Source: Candidatus Poribacteria bacterium
GTDB lineage: Bacteria; Poribacteria; DTPJ01; WJIO01
Direction: 5' to 3'
DNA: 7,303 bases
NCBI GenBank assembly: GCA_014730235.1
Contig: WJIO01000037.1
Coordinates: 1 to 7,303 of the forward strand
Shown: positions 173 to 7,127 of the stretch, in pieces
Position numbering within the stretch: position 1 is the stretch's first letter
Layout: every line of letters begins with the position of its first letter
Program-made: the position numbers and the translations under genes
The notes under the pieces: model-generated
The model's input: the letters and a program-made list of their open reading frames with translations, nothing else
Databases searched by the model: none
What the model was told of the DNA's origin: nothing

Positions 173-1072
173 TCAATCATCATCCTGTATTATACTAAAT
201 TCGGCCCAGACTGGCCTGTGATCCGATACGGCAATTATTGCCATATCATCATTATTGCTGAATACTTCTTCATCAAACTTATCTATACCGCTGTTTCCCG
301 TATATTCTTTCAGATAATCCCATTGAAACCATATATTGTCATATAGGCTTGAATCGGTTATGTGGGATTTTTCCGGTAAACTTATTATGGGTTTCATGGA
401 TGGTATACCAAAAAGATCTCCGTAGCTATCCATATCATCAGGCTCGCGATTAAAATCCCCCATAAGTAAAACATCCTGTTCCGGGCCGTTTAGTTCCTGG
501 ATCTGGTTATACACTTCAGCAAGCTTTTTTATTTCTGCCCGACGGTCTGAAACCCTGTCACCCCAGATAACATGAATAGCTATAGCTGTAAAATCAAATT
601 GTCCTGCCCTAAATGTGGCATAATATGGCTCTCTAATAAATGAATCCTCAGTATCCGGGAATATTTGACCTGATTCTAATACTGTTACCTTTGTATTATC
701 GTATAAAAAAGCATATCTTTCCTTAACGCCCCTGCCTACAGGTTCGCTTATCTGGTAATCGTAATCTTTGCCCATGTCATTAAGTATAGATTCTGTTCTC
801 TTGAGGACTTTCTCATCCCTTAATTCTATAACGGCGACAAAATCATAGTCCATTATGGTATCGGATATTTGTCCGAGTTCCTGATCATCCCTGCTGTTAT
901 CGGAAAATATTCTTATATTCCAGGATGCAAGACGCATGGTCTCGGAAACCGATCCCAGATGTTTCAGCTTTGGTTCGGCTTTTTTAGGTACTCGATAATA
1001 GTATTGGTAATATATACCTATGGCCAAAGCTAAAATAAGTATAAGAATAAGGAAAGATAAAAACCTTTTCAA
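173..1072 (-). CDS. Membrane-anchored endonuclease/exonuclease/phosphatase (DNase I-like) protein
   Basis: This is a 299-residue member of the EEP (DNase I-like) superfamily, metal-dependent phosphoesterases that cut DNA, RNA or phosphorylated small molecules. Residues 4-22 form one hydrophobic segment after MKR, a signal anchor or uncleaved signal, so the catalytic domain (about 45-295) should face outward. Active-site motifs appear complete: W51-N52, metal ligand E83, R119-Y120 in RYAFLYDN, H167, GDFN at 205-208 (D206, N208), D245-N246, and SDH at 283-285. The RYAFLY motif, and the spacing of H167 to an A-E-I-x-x-L-x-x-V-Y helix and then GDFN, resemble true DNase I more than exonuclease III, but the substrate is not provable. 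The start is TTG at 1072, with TAAGGAG 8 nt upstream; that site contains the stop codon of the URO-D gene, so the two are probably translationally coupled. An extracellular nuclease might serve DNA or phosphate scavenging. Confidence 0.85.
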   Translation of the reverse strand: MKRFLSFLILILILALAIGIYYQYYYRVPKKAEPKLKHLGSVSETMRLASWNIRIFSDNSRDDQELGQISDTIMDYDFVAVIELRDEKVLKRTESILNDMGKDYDYQISEPVGRGVKERYAFLYDNTKVTVLESGQIFPDTEDSFIREPYYATFRAGQFDFTAIAIHVIWGDRVSDRRAEIKKLAEVYNQIQELNGPEQDVLLMGDFNREPDDMDSYGDLFGIPSMKPIISLPEKSHITDSSLYDNIWFQWDYLKEYTGNSGIDKFDEEVFSNNDDMAIIAVSDHRPVWAEFSIIQDDD

Positions 1073-1080
1073 AATATCCG

Positions 1081-1087
1081 CTCCTTA
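1081..1087 (-). promoter_or_regulatory. Ribosome binding site TAAGGAG overlapping the upstream stop codon
   Basis: The minus-strand TAAGGAG is the complement of CTCCTTA at 1081-1087. Its first three bases are the TAA stop of the URO-D-like gene. It lies 8 nt before the TTG start of the EEP gene at 1072. It fixes that start and suggests that terminating ribosomes re-initiate there. Confidence 0.7.
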
Positions 1088-2182
1088 CTTGTATCCTGTT
1101 ATTTCTTTTCTTCGTTCAAGATAATAGAGATAATTTTCATAGGATATATCTTCAGGTACACCATGATCAACCAGAGGGATGAATCCACCTTTATCAACAA
1201 CAGGTTTCAGTCTTTCTATTTCAGCATCTATAGCATTTTTACCTTTAACCAAAGCCCTTTTATCTACATTACCCCACATAACGATCTTTTGACCGTATTG
1301 ATCCCGAAGTTTTCCCGCATCCATGTCAGAGGCCACTTCAAGAGGGTAAAATCCAGTAACGCCGCCTTCAATCCATAACGGTACAAGCTGTTCAATATTG
1401 CCATCACAGTCCACCCATGAAAGCTCTACACCGTTATCTTCCAGGAATGATGTTACCTTTCTGTAATTATGAACCATGTAATCTCTAAACATATCCGGGG
1501 AGATCAACGGCCCCGATTTATAACACATGTCCTCCCAGAACAGGGCAAAATCCACATCCACTTCTTTCACAGCTTTATCAAGCACCTGGATAAAAAAGTC
1601 TGCCAGATAGTCCATCATATCATGAATCAGATCAGGATCATCGTAAAACATAACGCTGATATTACTTACGCCTATCCAGTTTCGGGGAAAGCCGTATATA
1701 CTTCCGCCGTCAATGCTAATTGGATAATCTCTGTCTTTCCATTCCGCTTTTAGTCGTTGCCATTCAGCTTCCTGTGGGTATCTTCTGGGATCATCCGGGT
1801 TTAGCTGTTCTTCCTTAAATTTTTCCCAATCATCTCGGTTTTTTATTGGGTATTCAAGCCATTGATATGTGGGATAACCTGTTACTCCTTTCCGGGCTTT
1901 GGTTATAACACCATCTCCGGCCCGGTAGATTCGATATTCTTCAGTTTCTTCCAGGGTTATAACCTCAAAACCGGGACATATACCGAGATTAACAGGAACT
2001 CGCGGGTTACCCCAGAAAGCTGAGATCACACCTTCAAATCCAAAGAATTCAAAAGGATCAACATCTTTTGGCATACCTTCTTCATGCCATCTATCAAAGG
2101 GGCCAATCCAGTCAGCCCAAAAAGGAAGTCTATCTACTTCCTGAAACCTCATCGTTCGCCAGAATCGTTCTCTTTTTGTCAT
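1085..2182 (-). CDS. Uroporphyrinogen decarboxylase-like (URO-D/MtaA superfamily) protein
   Basis: This is a 365-residue protein of the URO-D fold, a TIM barrel shared by haem uroporphyrinogen decarboxylase and corrinoid or thiol methyltransferases (MtaA, CmuA). It starts TKRERFWRTMRFQEVDRLP, the usual opening of these paralogues. Other family landmarks are WEDMCYKSGPLISPDMF (about 216-232), DCDGNIEQLVPLW (258-270), GFYPLEVASDMD (277-288), a W-G-N-V-D-K-R-A segment (303-310) and DHGVPEDISYENY near the C-terminus. The DxDG form at 258-261 marks the large uncharacterised subgroup. The MtaA-type His-x-Cys zinc pair is not visible there (W256 stands where His is often found), so the catalytic metal is unclear. 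A role in haem synthesis is unlikely in this setting; methyl transfer is possible by family. The start is the ATG at 2182, with AGGAGA 6 nt upstream. An in-frame ATG at 2215 lacks such a site. Confidence 0.85.
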   Translation of the reverse strand: MTKRERFWRTMRFQEVDRLPFWADWIGPFDRWHEEGMPKDVDPFEFFGFEGVISAFWGNPRVPVNLGICPGFEVITLEETEEYRIYRAGDGVITKARKGVTGYPTYQWLEYPIKNRDDWEKFKEEQLNPDDPRRYPQEAEWQRLKAEWKDRDYPISIDGGSIYGFPRNWIGVSNISVMFYDDPDLIHDMMDYLADFFIQVLDKAVKEVDVDFALFWEDMCYKSGPLISPDMFRDYMVHNYRKVTSFLEDNGVELSWVDCDGNIEQLVPLWIEGGVTGFYPLEVASDMDAGKLRDQYGQKIVMWGNVDKRALVKGKNAIDAEIERLKPVVDKGGFIPLVDHGVPEDISYENYLYYLERRKEITGYK

Positions 2183-2188
2183 ATCAAA

Positions 2189-2194
2189 TCTCCT
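2189..2194 (-). promoter_or_regulatory. Ribosome binding site AGGAGA that sets the URO-D start
   Basis: The complement of TCTCCT at 2189-2194 reads AGGAGA, 6 nt before the ATG at 2182. It lies downstream of the alternative in-frame ATG at 2215, and so would be inside the reading frame if that ATG were used. It is the main reason for choosing the shorter 365-residue protein. Confidence 0.75.
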
Positions 2195-2205
2195 GACCCG
2201 ACATC

Positions 2206-2225
2206 TTTGATTCATTTTGATTCAT
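2206..2225 (-). repeat. Perfect 10-bp tandem duplication upstream of the URO-D gene
   Basis: TTTGATTCAT occurs twice back to back on the plus strand, at 2206-2215 and 2216-2225. On the minus strand this reads ATGAATCAAA twice, and so creates two ATG triplets. The one at 2215 is in frame with the URO-D gene, which explains why an automatic caller could extend that protein by 11 residues. The other, at 2225, is one base out of frame with it. Confidence 0.6.
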
Positions 2226-2252
2226 CTATGTTCAGTATAGAAGTTTCCATAG

Positions 2253-2281
2253 ATTATAACGTACCCAGAAGCCTAATTGAA
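2253..2281 (-). promoter_or_regulatory. Possible internal promoter (-10 TATAAT) for the URO-D gene
   Basis: The minus strand has a perfect TATAAT at 2258-2253, overlapping the stop codon of the BFD-type gene. Seventeen nt upstream the -35 position reads TTCAAT (2281-2276), which matches only three of six TTGACA bases. The placement before the one long gap in the operon is suggestive. In AT-leaning DNA such a hexamer can arise by chance, so this is weak. Confidence 0.2.
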
Positions 2282-2505
2282 ACAGGGCGCACCGGAGGAC
2301 GTACTCGGGGAATTGGTATTTCATCTAGAGACTTACCTGTTTCCTCAGCAATAATCCTGGCTATTAATCTGGAGCACGTATGCCCCTGGCATAAACCCAT
2401 TCCAGCCCTTGTCCGGCGTTTTACTTCATCAACAGTAACTGCCCCATCACGAACTGTCTGTCTGATTTCCTCTTCTGTAACTTCTTCACATCTGCATATT
2501 AACAT
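2254..2505 (-). CDS. BFD-type [2Fe-2S]-binding small subunit of a dehydrogenase
   Basis: This 83-residue protein matches the BFD-like [2Fe-2S] domain by eye. It begins LICRCEEVTEEEI, so the first cysteine pair is C4-x-C6. The second pair is in GLCQGHTCS, C39-x4-C44. Between them is V-D-E-V-K-R-R-T-R-A-G-M-G, the helix typical of this family. The tail has a proline-rich RVRPPVRPVS segment that is also characteristic. Relatives are small electron-transfer subunits of multi-subunit FAD dehydrogenases (sarcosine, proline, hydroxyproline or opine type), passing electrons between flavin sites. Its ATG overlaps the end of the 4Fe-4S gene by 20 nt and has no convincing Shine-Dalgarno site, so it probably depends on translational coupling. 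No FAD subunit is adjacent. The acceptor and substrate are therefore unknown; an alternative is a scaffold or electron carrier for the neighbouring URO-D protein. Confidence 0.88.
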   Translation of the reverse strand: MLICRCEEVTEEEIRQTVRDGAVTVDEVKRRTRAGMGLCQGHTCSRLIARIIAEETGKSLDEIPIPRVRPPVRPVSIRLLGTL

Positions 2506-3004
2506 TATTTTTGATCTTTATGCTTCTCACATGATCCGCATATTCTTTGGTAAGTTCAACGGTTATTAATATTGTTCCATCGGCATATTTGCGTTTGACA
2601 ATCTTTTTTACAACAGCAGAGCAAACGCGCTGACCCATGCGATCCAGCCCTTCGACAGTGGAACCTATTTCCGGCAGAGGTAAGAATTCATAAGGTATAG
2701 AAACCAAAGCCTTGTTATCAGAATATGATTTATCTACAACGAATATAGCCAAACCCGGACAATTAATCGCGCATTCCCCGCAGCCTTTGCATTTTTCTAC
2801 ATCCAGTTTTGGCAGATTTGTTATTGGTTCTCCTACAGTTATAGCGTCAAAACGACAGGATGTTTCACAGGGATTACATGGTATCTCCTGAATACACTCA
2901 ATAACTGCAACAGGGCCTTTTTCAAAGGACTTATCCGAAGGATAACCCGGTGAATTTTTTATTTTTTCCAGTGTAACAAACACTACACCAGATCCCTCAG
3001 ACAT
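2486..3004 (-). CDS. 2x[4Fe-4S] ferredoxin-like dehydrogenase subunit
   Basis: This 172-residue cytoplasmic electron-transfer protein shows two cysteine sets. The first is C37-x5-C43-x2-C46-x3-C50 in IECIQEIPCNPCETSC. The second is a classic C72-x2-C75-x2-C78-x3-C82-P83 in CKGCGECAINCPGLAIF. Around them are ITVGEPITNLPKLD and SIPYEFLPLPEIGSTVEGLDR, conserved stretches of a family that accompanies BFD-type [2Fe-2S] proteins and FAD oxidoreductases in anaerobes. The C-terminal 60 residues look like a small beta domain (VCSAVVKKIVKR, ILITVELTKEYADHVRSIK). After C50 the common Cys-Pro is Cys-Arg, a minor departure. The gene overlaps the DUF6485-type gene by 22 nt and the BFD-type gene by 20 nt. 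A modest site (AAAAGGA, 3016-3022) lies 11 nt before the ATG. Family membership is strong, but the partner enzyme is not in the window. Confidence 0.88.
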   Translation of the reverse strand: MSEGSGVVFVTLEKIKNSPGYPSDKSFEKGPVAVIECIQEIPCNPCETSCRFDAITVGEPITNLPKLDVEKCKGCGECAINCPGLAIFVVDKSYSDNKALVSIPYEFLPLPEIGSTVEGLDRMGQRVCSAVVKKIVKRKYADGTILITVELTKEYADHVRSIKIKNNVNMQM

Positions 3005-3153
3005 GCCGGTAGCTGTCCTTTTGATCTATGATTTTCAATACATTCACAGCAAAATCCCCGGCGTGGGCATTTTTCGCTCCCACAGGTGCAATCTTCTTTA
3101 TTAACTTCGATATTAGGACATTCCAATCTCTTTTTATTATCTTTACCTGACAT
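2983..3153 (-). CDS. Small Cys-rich DUF6485-type cytosolic protein
   Basis: This 56-residue gene is easily missed because of its length. It begins MSGKDNKKRLECPNIEV and contains CTCGSEKCPRRGFCCEC followed by HRSKGQLPAC, ending LRDLV. Eight cysteines are present (12, 22, 24, 29, 35, 36, 38, 51). The pattern of C-P-N-I-E-x-N-K, then C-x-C-x4-C, then G-x-C-C-E-C-I, then an H-R-x-x-G-x-L-P-A-C end matches my memory of the DUF6485 family, small proteins of unknown function common in anaerobes. Zinc or Fe-S binding is an inference from the cysteines. Its ATG directly follows the TAA of the glycoside hydrolase with no spacer. A perfect AGGAGG lies 10 nt upstream inside that gene's last codons. Its 3' end overlaps the 4Fe-4S gene by 22 nt. 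Both junctions support translation as part of the operon, just upstream of the Fe-S genes. Confidence 0.85.
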   Translation of the reverse strand: MSGKDNKKRLECPNIEVNKEDCTCGSEKCPRRGFCCECIENHRSKGQLPACLRDLV

Positions 3154-4788
3154 TTATTCTTTTCCTCCTGAATTTATATGTATTTTTTCAATTTTAGCGT
3201 TAACTTCCTTCATCCGGGAAGTAAGTATTTCCCAAGTTTCATCTTTAATATTAACAAGGCCGTAGTTGCTGTTTTCACCATCAAAACGACCTTCGGCTGG
3301 TTCATCGGCATGTTCAAACCAGTGAAAACCCACCATGTAAGGTTGTTCCATAAGAGCAGTTACATAACCATCAAAAAGATCAGCCCTGTCCTGCTGAGTT
3401 TCCACAGGTGAACCTGCGCCTTTTGTGTTCGGCAGACCTGAGTCCATAGCCTTAAAGGAAAATTCGGTTAGCATAATTGGTTTGCCGGTTATTTTATATA
3501 TCTCTTCAAGCCTTTCCAATGGAGCAGTTTTGCTGTAGTTATTATAGGATACCACATCAACATAGTTCTTCATAGCTTTGACTACTTCAGTCGGCGCATA
3601 TCCAGCGAAACGACAACCAAGGATAAGATGATTTGGATCGTATTTTTTTATTGCCTCATTACAAACCTTAAAATATTGTTCAGCAACTTTTTCCAGGAAT
3701 TTACTCTCAACCTTCTTGATTTCCTCAACAACCGGAGATTCACCAGATGGCTTATTATAAAAGGCATCTATAAGCTCATCATAAGAATTAAAATCTGTTT
3801 CAAAAGCTTTGTTTACCTTTTCCAGATTGCCGTATATCATCTCAAGCCCCATTATAATAAACTCCCTGGGAAGATTGAGAATCTGGATCTCTTCTGACAG
3901 CTTTATAAGAAAATCTTTTGTCAGCAATTCATCGTAGGACGAAGCGTTGGTATTATAAACTTCATTTACCTTTTGCAGGCTACCATAAGTTTGGTTCAGG
4001 TAGAGCTTTGCCGCCGGTTTAGGCATAGGCAATCCGGCGAATTTCTGGTCTTCGGGAGATGGAAATTCAACACCCAATTCAGATAGGCTTGATGCTTTTT
4101 CTATATCATCAAAACTGCCGATCTCTGTCTGCCATGACTTGTTTAGTCCATCAATATTTTCATACATGCCTTTCAGCATAGTCATCAGAGCATTTTTCCC
4201 CGGTGAACCGGCAGGAAAGGCCAGGAAATCATCAAAAAGGTCGTTTTCAGAACGCCAATCAGCCGCCCATCTTAATTCATTATCTATAAAATATCCTAGA
4301 AGCATTGGATCATCTCTTCGGGGTGCGCAGTCTTTTAACGCTGAAGCCTCAGCAGCTTCCCTGAATTTTTCTGAAAAGACATCAGGAAAAACACCTTTGC
4401 GCCAATCTCCTCCGGCATTTGCTCCTATATTAAGAATAGGTGTATAGGCCATGTCATAAACATAAGTCTCAGAATCAGACCATGCACCTATTGTATTAAA
4501 ACCCCAACCTTTCATCCGTTCAACGACAGTCTCAGCCCAATCCTGATGACTTTCGTATTTTTTACTTACAAAATCGTGATATGGACTCCGACCTAAAGCC
4601 GGTGAATGGTCACCTCTAAAGGTTACATGGTTAACACCTTTTGATATAAAAGCTTTACCAGAAGGATCAACAAGCCACCACACACCATCTATTTCTTCAG
4701 TGCGAAAGAAACCAGTTCCTTCCACCTGCAAATGTTCCCAGTCCTGCATTGCCAGACTCATAAAAACTAACAACAATCCCTCTAACAA
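3154..4788 (-). CDS. Clan GH-A glycoside hydrolase, agarase-like
   Basis: This is a 544-residue TIM-barrel glycoside hydrolase. The N-terminal FFRTEEIDGVWWLVDPSGKA (27-46), then FISKGVNHV, is the entry strand seen in proteins often annotated as beta-agarase or GH42/GH50-like. LLGYFIDNELRW (163-174) carries the beta-4 Asn-Glu pair N170-E171, the expected acid/base. KPIMLTEFSFKA (436-447) carries E442, the expected nucleophile. DPNHLILGCRFAGYAP and GFHWFEHADEPAEG complete the barrel. Between E171 and the DPNHL strand sits an enlarged insertion (about 200-350) with three copies of one motif. The start is TTG at 4788, 8 nt after AGGAGG. The first 14 residues are hydrophobic but lack a basic end, so export is doubtful. 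It follows the beta-propeller gene by 12 nt. A galactan or other algal-type glycan is a plausible substrate, not shown. Confidence 0.82.
   Translation of the reverse strand: MLEGLLLVFMSLAMQDWEHLQVEGTGFFRTEEIDGVWWLVDPSGKAFISKGVNHVTFRGDHSPALGRSPYHDFVSKKYESHQDWAETVVERMKGWGFNTIGAWSDSETYVYDMAYTPILNIGANAGGDWRKGVFPDVFSEKFREAAEASALKDCAPRRDDPMLLGYFIDNELRWAADWRSENDLFDDFLAFPAGSPGKNALMTMLKGMYENIDGLNKSWQTEIGSFDDIEKASSLSELGVEFPSPEDQKFAGLPMPKPAAKLYLNQTYGSLQKVNEVYNTNASSYDELLTKDFLIKLSEEIQILNLPREFIIMGLEMIYGNLEKVNKAFETDFNSYDELIDAFYNKPSGESPVVEEIKKVESKFLEKVAEQYFKVCNEAIKKYDPNHLILGCRFAGYAPTEVVKAMKNYVDVVSYNNYSKTAPLERLEEIYKITGKPIMLTEFSFKAMDSGLPNTKGAGSPVETQQDRADLFDGYVTALMEQPYMVGFHWFEHADEPAEGRFDGENSNYGLVNIKDETWEILTSRMKEVNAKIEKIHINSGGKE
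3164..3169 (-). promoter_or_regulatory. Ribosome binding site AGGAGG for the DUF6485-type gene, inside the hydrolase gene
   Basis: The complement of CCTCCT at 3164-3169 reads AGGAGG. It encodes part of the Ser-Gly-Gly-Lys-Glu end of the glycoside hydrolase, and lies 10 nt before the ATG at 3153. This is strong support that the 56-residue frame is really translated. Confidence 0.75.
3772..4164 (-). repeat. Three copies of a 21-residue motif within the glycoside hydrolase
   Basis: Residues 209-229 (4102-4164), 268-288 (3925-3987) and 319-339 (3772-3834) align without gaps. Five positions are identical in all three: Y1, N8, T13, S17 and D19. The copies read like Y-G-x-L-x-K-V-N-x-x-x-x-T, then S-Y-D-E-L. 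Copies 2 and 3 are closest to each other and also share an L-P about 14-16 residues before the motif. Copy 1 looks like the standard Y-x-x-x-x-x-L-N-x-x-W-x-T segment of related GH-A enzymes, so copies 2 and 3 are probably later duplications. Confidence 0.7.
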
Positions 4789-4796
4789 ATTATTTT

Positions 4797-4802
4797 CCTC
4801 CT
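4797..4802 (-). promoter_or_regulatory. Ribosome binding site AGGAGG that sets a TTG start
   Basis: The complement of CCTCCT at 4797-4802 is AGGAGG, 8 nt before the TTG at 4788. It shares bases with the TAG stop (4801-4803) of the beta-propeller gene. The perfect site and spacing favour TTG over the downstream ATGs at residues 10 and 14. Confidence 0.7.
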
Positions 4803-5685
4803 AAGTTTCCAAACATGCCAGACCTATGGCATGATATTTATGAATAGTATCCTTGCGTCCTGCGTAATACATACTCCAGCTTCCATCTGGATTCTTCACC
4901 AATGAAGAACATGAAGCATAAACGCTATCCCATTTTTCAGGCCCTGGGCTAATAACAGGATTACCCGTATATTTTTCCCAGTCCAGGCCGTCATTGCTGG
5001 TGGCCACTCCCATATAGCACTTTGACGACGACATCCCGGTGTAAAACATGTAGTATATTCCATCCTGTTTTAATACATGGGGATATAATACGTTGTAGCT
5101 GTCCCAGCCCTTACCGCGAACCAAAACTGGTTTATCCCTGTGTTCCCAGCATAACCCGTCTTTGCTTTCGGCATAAGCTATATCGAATTCACCATAGGTA
5201 TTTATTGTATGCCACATCCGGTATAGGCCATTATCCTTTATAATCGTGGGGGAATATGCGTTTGTAGTAACCGGAGATGCCGGATGCTTAACCCAGTTAA
5301 TCCCGTCCTGACTGATTATATATTCTAAGTCATTGGCCCTGTTTCCATTAAACCAGGCCTTCCATAGACCATCTTCAATCAGTAAAGAGCCATCGGCTTT
5401 TCTTAATACAGCCATGCAGGTGTGGAAATTATCCCGATCACCTAAATCAATTATTGGTTTACCAATTTTGTTAAAATCTATCCCGTCTTCGCTTGTAGCG
5501 AGGCTAAGCTGATATTCCACATATTCATCATCAGGAGGCCCTACCGGCCCGCCGGAGTAAAACATCCAGTAGCGGCTGTCATGGTAAACAACCATAGGAG
5601 CATGGATGTTAAAATGGTCAAAGTCTCCGGGTTTTCCCCGCTCCAGAACCGGGTTGGCTTCGTGTTTTACCCATTTGTCGAACAT
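4801..5685 (-). CDS. Five-bladed beta-propeller glycosidase-type protein (GH43/GH32/GH130-like)
   Basis: This is a 294-residue protein made of repeating propeller blades. A W-x-K-H-x-x-N-P-V-L element opens it (KWVKHEANPVL). Four further S-x-D-G-[IL]-x-[WF] elements follow: SEDGIDF, SQDGINW, SKDGLCW and SNDGLDW, each followed by a P-V/P-I strand. Blade strands such as YWMFYSGG, YYMFYTGM and SWSMYYAG recur. Together these indicate the five-bladed fold of GH43, GH32/68 and GH130 enzymes, which act on arabinose, xylose, fructose, mannose or galactose linkages. No signal peptide is visible, so it is probably cytoplasmic and acts on imported oligosaccharides. I cannot assign catalytic carboxylates safely, so the exact family is open. 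The ATG at 5685 is preferred: GGAGA sits 6-7 nt upstream, whereas the TTG at 5691 overlaps that site. The preceding gene stops only 2 nt before the ATG. Confidence 0.8.
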   Translation of the reverse strand: MFDKWVKHEANPVLERGKPGDFDHFNIHAPMVVYHDSRYWMFYSGGPVGPPDDEYVEYQLSLATSEDGIDFNKIGKPIIDLGDRDNFHTCMAVLRKADGSLLIEDGLWKAWFNGNRANDLEYIISQDGINWVKHPASPVTTNAYSPTIIKDNGLYRMWHTINTYGEFDIAYAESKDGLCWEHRDKPVLVRGKGWDSYNVLYPHVLKQDGIYYMFYTGMSSSKCYMGVATSNDGLDWEKYTGNPVISPGPEKWDSVYASCSSLVKNPDGSWSMYYAGRKDTIHKYHAIGLACLET

Positions 5686-5687
5686 AG

Positions 5688-7127
5688 TCAATCTCCATCC
5701 GTTTCCCTTGTAACCTCAATCCAGTGACTAAGGGCATTTCCCATTTTCTCCCCCGGCAATGATATAGATATTATTGCTCCGTTAATTACATCTCCCCGGA
5801 GTTTCATATCCAGATGTAGATAATAACGACGACGGTTGGAATCCTCTGTACCTATATCACCCATTAGAACACCCCTGATCCAATTATCTTTAAATGTCAC
5901 ATTATTGACAAGGGTTTTAAGCTGGTTTTCCATCTGGACATGCACATCGCCGGATTCTTTGAACCATATATTTAAAGGTATATCACATTTGTAGGTATGA
6001 ATATTTCCAGACCATTTTCCCCGCAGTTCATCACCGGGTTGGAATGGCTCTGGTTCTGATGATTCATCTTTATCTGCTTCTTTTTTCTTAATCTCATCCG
6101 GGAACATCACCTTCAATATTTCTTCATGTATCATCCATGAAAGTGATGATGAGGCGTTTGTCAATACGGCGATAGCTGTTCCATGCTCCGGTTGCAGAGA
6201 TAAGATTGTCCTTACGCCGCCCATTCCGCCGGTATGAGCTACAGTCATCAGACCTTCGGAATTTCTGCCGATCCGCCAGCCAATTCCATAACCTGAACTG
6301 CTGTCTATGTCTGCTGTGGGAACCTGCATTTCATCAATAGTTTCATCAGTGATTATTTGTTTCTGATGGGAAAGATGATTTTTCAGGTGGAACATGCCAA
6401 AGCGTATCAGATCGTGAACGCTGCTGTATACAGCCGACGCACCGGGATGGTCAAAATCATAAAAGGGTATGGGTAGTCCGTCAGAACCGTATCTGATGGC
6501 CTGGTAATCCTCAAGACCGGGATCAATATTAATGGAAGTGTGGGTCATTCCCAATGGTAAAAAAACCTCTGTCCGCATAAAATCCTCATAGCTCAGACCC
6601 GAAAGTCTAGATATTGCATAGTCCATGAGACCATAACCCAGGTTGCAGTATTGGTAACGTTCACCGGGCAAAGTAAATAGTTTTGCATAACGTCTTATGG
6701 TTTCATCCATTGGTGGTCTAGGGTAGGATTCATCTCTACAGAAAAATTGATAATGTAACCCCATTCCCGATGAATGATTTGCCACACGTCGGACAGTAGC
6801 ATCCTCAGCTTTACCAATTCGGGCAGTAATTTTGGCCTCATCCAGATAATCATTAAAAGGTTTATCCAGTTCCACCAATCCCCGTTCTTTAAGGATCATG
6901 AATCCTGTGGCTGTAATAGGTTTGGATATGGATGCCAGAGAATACATGGTATGTTCGTTGGATTTAATCCTTCTCTGACTATCAGCCCATCCGAACCCCT
7001 CTTCCCAGATTATTTCACCTTCCTGGGCCACTGCCACAGCCGCAGATGATACGGACATCTCTACTAGTTTTTGCGTTATGAATTCACGAATCCTGTCAAA
7101 TTTATTGCTGCATTTTTTTGACATCAT
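5688..7127 (-). CDS. Class C beta-lactamase-like serine hydrolase (family S12 fold)
   Basis: This is a 479-residue serine hydrolase of the penicillin-binding/class C beta-lactamase fold. The three active-site motifs are visible: S66-I-S-K69 (nucleophile and base), Y160-C-N162, and H298-T-G300 in place of the KTG box. HTG and a loose overall match point to an esterase, amidase or peptidase rather than antibiotic resistance. The catalytic domain ends near residue 345. A charged linker (KKKEADKDESSEPEP) follows, then an extra C-terminal beta-rich domain (about 363-479) that opens with DELRGKWSGNI, as seen in several S12 relatives. No signal peptide is seen, so a cytoplasmic place is likely. The ATG at 7127 has AGGAGA (7137-7142) 9 nt upstream and overlaps the end of the sulfatase gene by 26 nt. 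Position beside sulfatase and glycosidases suggests ester or substituent removal from a glycan; this is inference. Confidence 0.87.
   Translation of the reverse strand: MMSKKCSNKFDRIREFITQKLVEMSVSSAAVAVAQEGEIIWEEGFGWADSQRRIKSNEHTMYSLASISKPITATGFMILKERGLVELDKPFNDYLDEAKITARIGKAEDATVRRVANHSSGMGLHYQFFCRDESYPRPPMDETIRRYAKLFTLPGERYQYCNLGYGLMDYAISRLSGLSYEDFMRTEVFLPLGMTHTSINIDPGLEDYQAIRYGSDGLPIPFYDFDHPGASAVYSSVHDLIRFGMFHLKNHLSHQKQIITDETIDEMQVPTADIDSSSGYGIGWRIGRNSEGLMTVAHTGGMGGVRTILSLQPEHGTAIAVLTNASSSLSWMIHEEILKVMFPDEIKKKEADKDESSEPEPFQPGDELRGKWSGNIHTYKCDIPLNIWFKESGDVHVQMENQLKTLVNNVTFKDNWIRGVLMGDIGTEDSNRRRYYLHLDMKLRGDVINGAIISISLPGEKMGNALSHWIEVTRETDGD
5692..5696 (-). promoter_or_regulatory. Ribosome binding site GGAGA that sets the beta-propeller start
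   Basis: The minus strand reads GGAGATTGACTATG here. GGAGA (5696-5692) is 6 nt before the ATG at 5685. It directly abuts the TTG at 5691, which would leave no spacer. The TGA in between is the stop of the serine hydrolase gene. Confidence 0.65.

Follow-up and report, generated by a model that had tools for sequence, protein, structure and literature searches.

The window analysed here (7.3 kb, the whole stretch of DNA under study) is the entire contig C385 of a draft genome (5.53 Mb, 451 contigs, 91.6% complete, 4.8% estimated contamination), and both of its edges are contig ends. The following genes were assigned in it; the gamma (PdhF) and delta (PdhX) names were given according to the published gene order and the match of the BFD-type protein to PH1363, and not according to PdhF or PdhX sequences.

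173-1072, minus strand: endo/exonuclease-phosphatase protein, distantly MnuA-like, with a hydrophobic segment at the N-terminus; closes the glycan gene row
1085-2215, minus strand: URO-D-superfamily protein, distantly MtaA/CmuA/HemE-like; a neighbour only
2254-2505, minus strand: BFD-type 2Fe-2S protein, 83 aa, PdhX/delta-like subunit (Pfam BFD-like [2Fe-2S])
2486-3004, minus strand: 4Fe-4S protein, 172 aa, PdhF/gamma-like electron-transfer subunit (Pfam Fer4)
2983-3153, minus strand: DUF6485-like Cys-rich small protein, 56 aa (Pfam DUF6485)
3154-4788, minus strand: GH42-like glycoside hydrolase (Pfam); upstream neighbour
4801-5691, minus strand: GH130/GH43-like protein; neighbour

The DUF6485-like, 4Fe-4S and BFD genes are thus flanked by the GH42-like hydrolase and the URO-D-like protein, and a serine hydrolase was also found among the window neighbours with Pfam. 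The original prediction described three small genes overlapping by 20-22 nt, and the open reading frames were indeed found at these positions of the minus strand, with overlaps of 22 nt between the DUF6485-like and 4Fe-4S genes (2983-3004) and of 20 nt between the 4Fe-4S and BFD genes (2486-2505). It was also correct that no flavoprotein gene lies nearby: no FAD subunit is encoded in the 7.3-kb window, which is the whole contig. At positions 1-137 of the minus strand, a further gene starts behind a good Shine-Dalgarno sequence and runs off the contig end. Its N-terminus is hydrophobic (MYKKLLIHIFIIAAIALIIITSAADRSED...), and its product, downstream of the nuclease-like gene, is likely a secreted or membrane-anchored protein. 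The Rfam search of the window gave no match, and the promoter and terminator scans gave hits at chance level only.

The 4Fe-4S protein matched Fer4 in Pfam (E = 3.3e-6). Its eight ligand cysteines (C37, C43, C46, C50, C72, C75, C78 and C82) were all kept in 36/36 relatives, and the protein may carry two clusters because these eight ligands are conserved. The ATG at 3004 was favoured as the start of the gene by the N-termini of the homologues; an alternative is the GTG at 2983 (TAGTG, with a 1-nt overlap with the upstream stop), from which translation could possibly begin instead, because residues 1-7 are predicted to be disordered. The structural model was confident (pLDDT 90.5), and the fold search with it gave no significant match among solved structures; no sequence match to 1Y56 was found either. 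Residues ~95-165 form a confidently predicted, beta-rich C-terminal domain that is conserved in the family and has no Pfam or significant PDB match. With close members of the gene block described below, the protein shared about 45-55% identity across most of its length, and the ligand cysteines were common to both. For the BFD-type protein, of which the start was well backed by the homologue alignment, Pfam gave the BFD-like [2Fe-2S] domain (E = 2.9e-16) and the sarcosine oxidase A3 domain (E = 2.9e-14). All four Cys ligands were kept in 30/30 relatives, and the protein matched the C-terminus of PH1363 (1Y56 chain A, residues 414-490).

The match of the third small protein to DUF6485 (PF20095) was just under the curated cut-off of Pfam (E = 7e-5, 23.7 bits against 24); the protein contains the Cys pattern CX3GXCCXCX3H, and the gene has its own Shine-Dalgarno sequence. 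No publication on DUF6485 was found in the literature search. The protein was considered as a member of the complex discussed below and was rejected, as no complex-bearing locus contained a DUF6485 motif. In G058, a genome of the same phylum, the motif sits near groES/groEL-like genes.

Relatives were drawn from the same phylum and from named genomes; in addition, selected genomes and one class were searched genome-wide. The named genomes gave 34 clear loci (L043-L075 and L077); L076 and L078, which were distant (about 30% identity) and had no HcnB match, were excluded. After 7 duplicates were dropped, the total was about 65 loci, of which a few more may be common to two collections. The usual gene order in the relatives is HcnA-like 2Fe-2S, HcnB-like FAD, 4Fe-4S, BFD and DAO-type FAD. 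The 4Fe-4S gene adjoins the HcnB-like FAD gene in these about 65 relatives with the sole exception of L071, the contig of which starts 30 nt upstream, where the FAD neighbour is missing. The four ligand cysteines of HcnA were invariant among the relatives (4 of 4). This dehydrogenase block of five genes occurs widely among uncultured anaerobes and was found in many bacterial and archaeal phyla (among others in Clostridia, Synergistota, Atribacterota and archaea). In two genomes of the same phylum (G058 and G059), the FAD subunit carries the 4Fe-4S protein as a C-terminal fusion, and this fusion is a direct sign of the putative partnership between the two subunits. The small Fe-S proteins had been predicted to belong to the family of FAD amino/imino-acid dehydrogenase subunits, and this was correct.

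Three further observations were made on individual loci. On a plasmid of Parabacteroides distasonis (L018, 6687-9923), a single gene, annotated as an FAD-dependent oxidoreductase, combines the HcnA, HcnB, 4Fe-4S and BFD parts. In G058 (L041, contig C76), the fused HcnB-4Fe4S gene and a GH106-like alpha-L-rhamnosidase gene (3-1265 and 1262-4234) overlap by 4 nt. In Sedimentibacter hydroxybenzoicus (L043), DHDPS-family genes stand on either side of the dehydrogenase block (69-965 and 3203-4096), a hint of an amino- or imino-acid pathway in this species.

The flavoprotein subunits were found elsewhere in the genome with the window, on two other contigs. C263 carries an HcnA-like 2Fe-2S protein (85 aa; Fer2_4, E = 4.9e-32; CX4CX2CX12C) and, directly after it, an HcnB-like FAD protein (342 aa), followed by unrelated efflux genes; the contig opens inside the HcnA gene, which thus lacks its start. 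The HcnB-like protein was 61% identical to the fused protein of G059 and stops short of the point where the 4Fe-4S part would start. C143 carries a DAO-type FAD subunit (374 aa), flanked by genes for a P-type ATPase and a cytidylate-kinase-like protein; it shared 54% identity with the DAO in the block of G059 and was by far the best homologue in the genome (E = 9e-77, against 4e-13 for the next). The contiguous block, which is usual and is dispensable for function, is therefore absent here, with 4Fe-4S and BFD on C385, HcnA and HcnB on C263, and DAO on C143. Neither the HcnB gene of C263 nor the DAO gene of C143 has an adjoining 4Fe-4S or BFD gene (the C263 sequence begins inside HcnA). The 4Fe-4S, BFD and HcnB-type genes were each found once in the draft genome (92% complete; for HcnB, at this level of similarity), and no further copy of 4Fe-4S or BFD was found in it beyond the window. 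With HcnA and DAO, the genome thus provides the full set, one of every subunit; extra subunit copies could sit in the part that is missing from this draft of 451 contigs. A junction of C263 or C143 with a window edge was considered and rejected: no end sequence longer than 13 nt is shared, and the left edge holds the start of another, secreted-type gene.

The base composition and the subunit trees agree that the pieces on C385, C263 and C143 belong together. The tetranucleotide distance to the genome mean was 0.125 for the window, 0.126 for C263 and 0.128-0.144 for C143, where pieces of the same genome gave 0.129 (standard deviation, 0.019) and other genomes 0.20-0.76; all three contigs fit the genome profile, and foreign contigs do not. 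In the HcnB tree, the C263 protein was placed in a clade (100/100) with G059, G058 and certain Bacillota and Myxococcota loci, and in the DAO tree, the C143 protein was the sister of the G059 DAO (96/86). In both trees, this genome thus grouped with G059 and with partly the same Bacillota and Myxococcota loci, and these subunits share their ancestry with intact blocks. The 4Fe-4S tree was consistent with this and poorly resolved, and the window protein and that of G059 were not grouped in it (no starred clade).

From these sequence comparisons, the 4Fe-4S and BFD proteins of the window are very probably the gamma and delta subunits of a known heteromeric FAD amino/imino-acid dehydrogenase, of which the genes are split over three contigs. 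The complex would be of the kind of L-proline dehydrogenase, D-hydroxyproline dehydrogenase, opine dehydrogenase and HCN synthase, with its parts encoded at three sites: HcnA and HcnB (C263), the catalytic DAO (C143), and 4Fe-4S and BFD (window). The products of the three sites would still assemble. By homology with 1Y56 and with the opine and D-hydroxyproline dehydrogenases, the DAO subunit would oxidise an amino or imino acid; the electrons would run through the FAD/FMN and 2Fe-2S centres and on to the 4Fe-4S protein, the putative exit to ferredoxin or the quinone pool.

The original prediction had proposed a new or redeployed role for the Fe-S pair. This proposal is not supported, and both findings that the prediction had named as counting against it were obtained: the matching FAD subunits lie on C263 and C143 with no other Fe-S pair alongside, and the DUF6485, 4Fe-4S, BFD and URO-D gene order was seen in none of the relatives, only in this assembly. 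Redeployment of the pair for a step of the glycan operon (e.g., with the URO-D-like protein), independent of a dehydrogenase, is accordingly unlikely, although the 22-nt and 20-nt gene overlaps and the position in a co-directional gene row speak for it, and the rhamnosidase overlap in G058 is a weak hint of a glycan link in the phylum. We regard it as similarly improbable that the 4Fe-4S/BFD pair serves, with the DUF6485 protein, a second, glycan-linked redox enzyme besides or instead of the dispersed dehydrogenase. A split produced by assembly or binning, with a foreign Fe-S pair, foreign flavoprotein contigs or a chimeric contig, would be in keeping with a draft of 451 contigs with 4.8% estimated contamination and with the lack of a second genome with the same arrangement; however, the three contigs are as close to the genome composition as random pieces of this genome are, the 4Fe-4S gene is tied by overlap to the DUF6485 gene, and the subunits missing from the window are exactly those present on the other contigs, which makes such an artefact very unlikely. 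That the pair is a non-functional relic of a broken-up block is highly improbable: it stands apart from its partners in an arrangement kept in no second genome, but its frames are open, its 8 and 4 Cys ligands are intact, and the 4Fe-4S model is confidently folded.

For the dispersed dehydrogenase, the DUF6485 and glycan surroundings are probably incidental or matter for co-expression only; the gene order is unusual, and the machinery is not new. The locus is a clear case of seemingly orphan electron-transfer subunits for which the break-up of a gene block offers the explanation, and it warns that local gene context alone is a poor ground for inferring a new function.

Among the known systems, the L-proline dehydrogenase of Thermococcus profundus is a four-subunit complex (alpha-beta-gamma-delta), of which the gene order pdhA-F-X-B (PMC4364671) matches the FAD, 4Fe-4S, BFD and DAO order of the relatives; here, in contrast, the genes lie on three contigs, and alpha is represented by two chains, one HcnA-like and one HcnB-like. 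With the L-proline dehydrogenase of Pyrococcus horikoshii (PH1363/PH1364; solved structure PDB 1Y56), HcnB and BFD match chain A and DAO matches chain B; in that enzyme, alpha includes the BFD part by fusion, whereas the BFD of the window is a separate gene. Opine dehydrogenase (OdhABC), D-hydroxyproline dehydrogenase and HCN synthase (HcnABC) consist of alpha (FAD and BFD-type 2Fe-2S), beta (DAO) and gamma (2Fe-2S, CX4CX2CX11-12C) subunits (PMC4575208). They share these three kinds of subunit with the present set; however, they are three-subunit enzymes without a 4Fe-4S subunit, and the present set has one.
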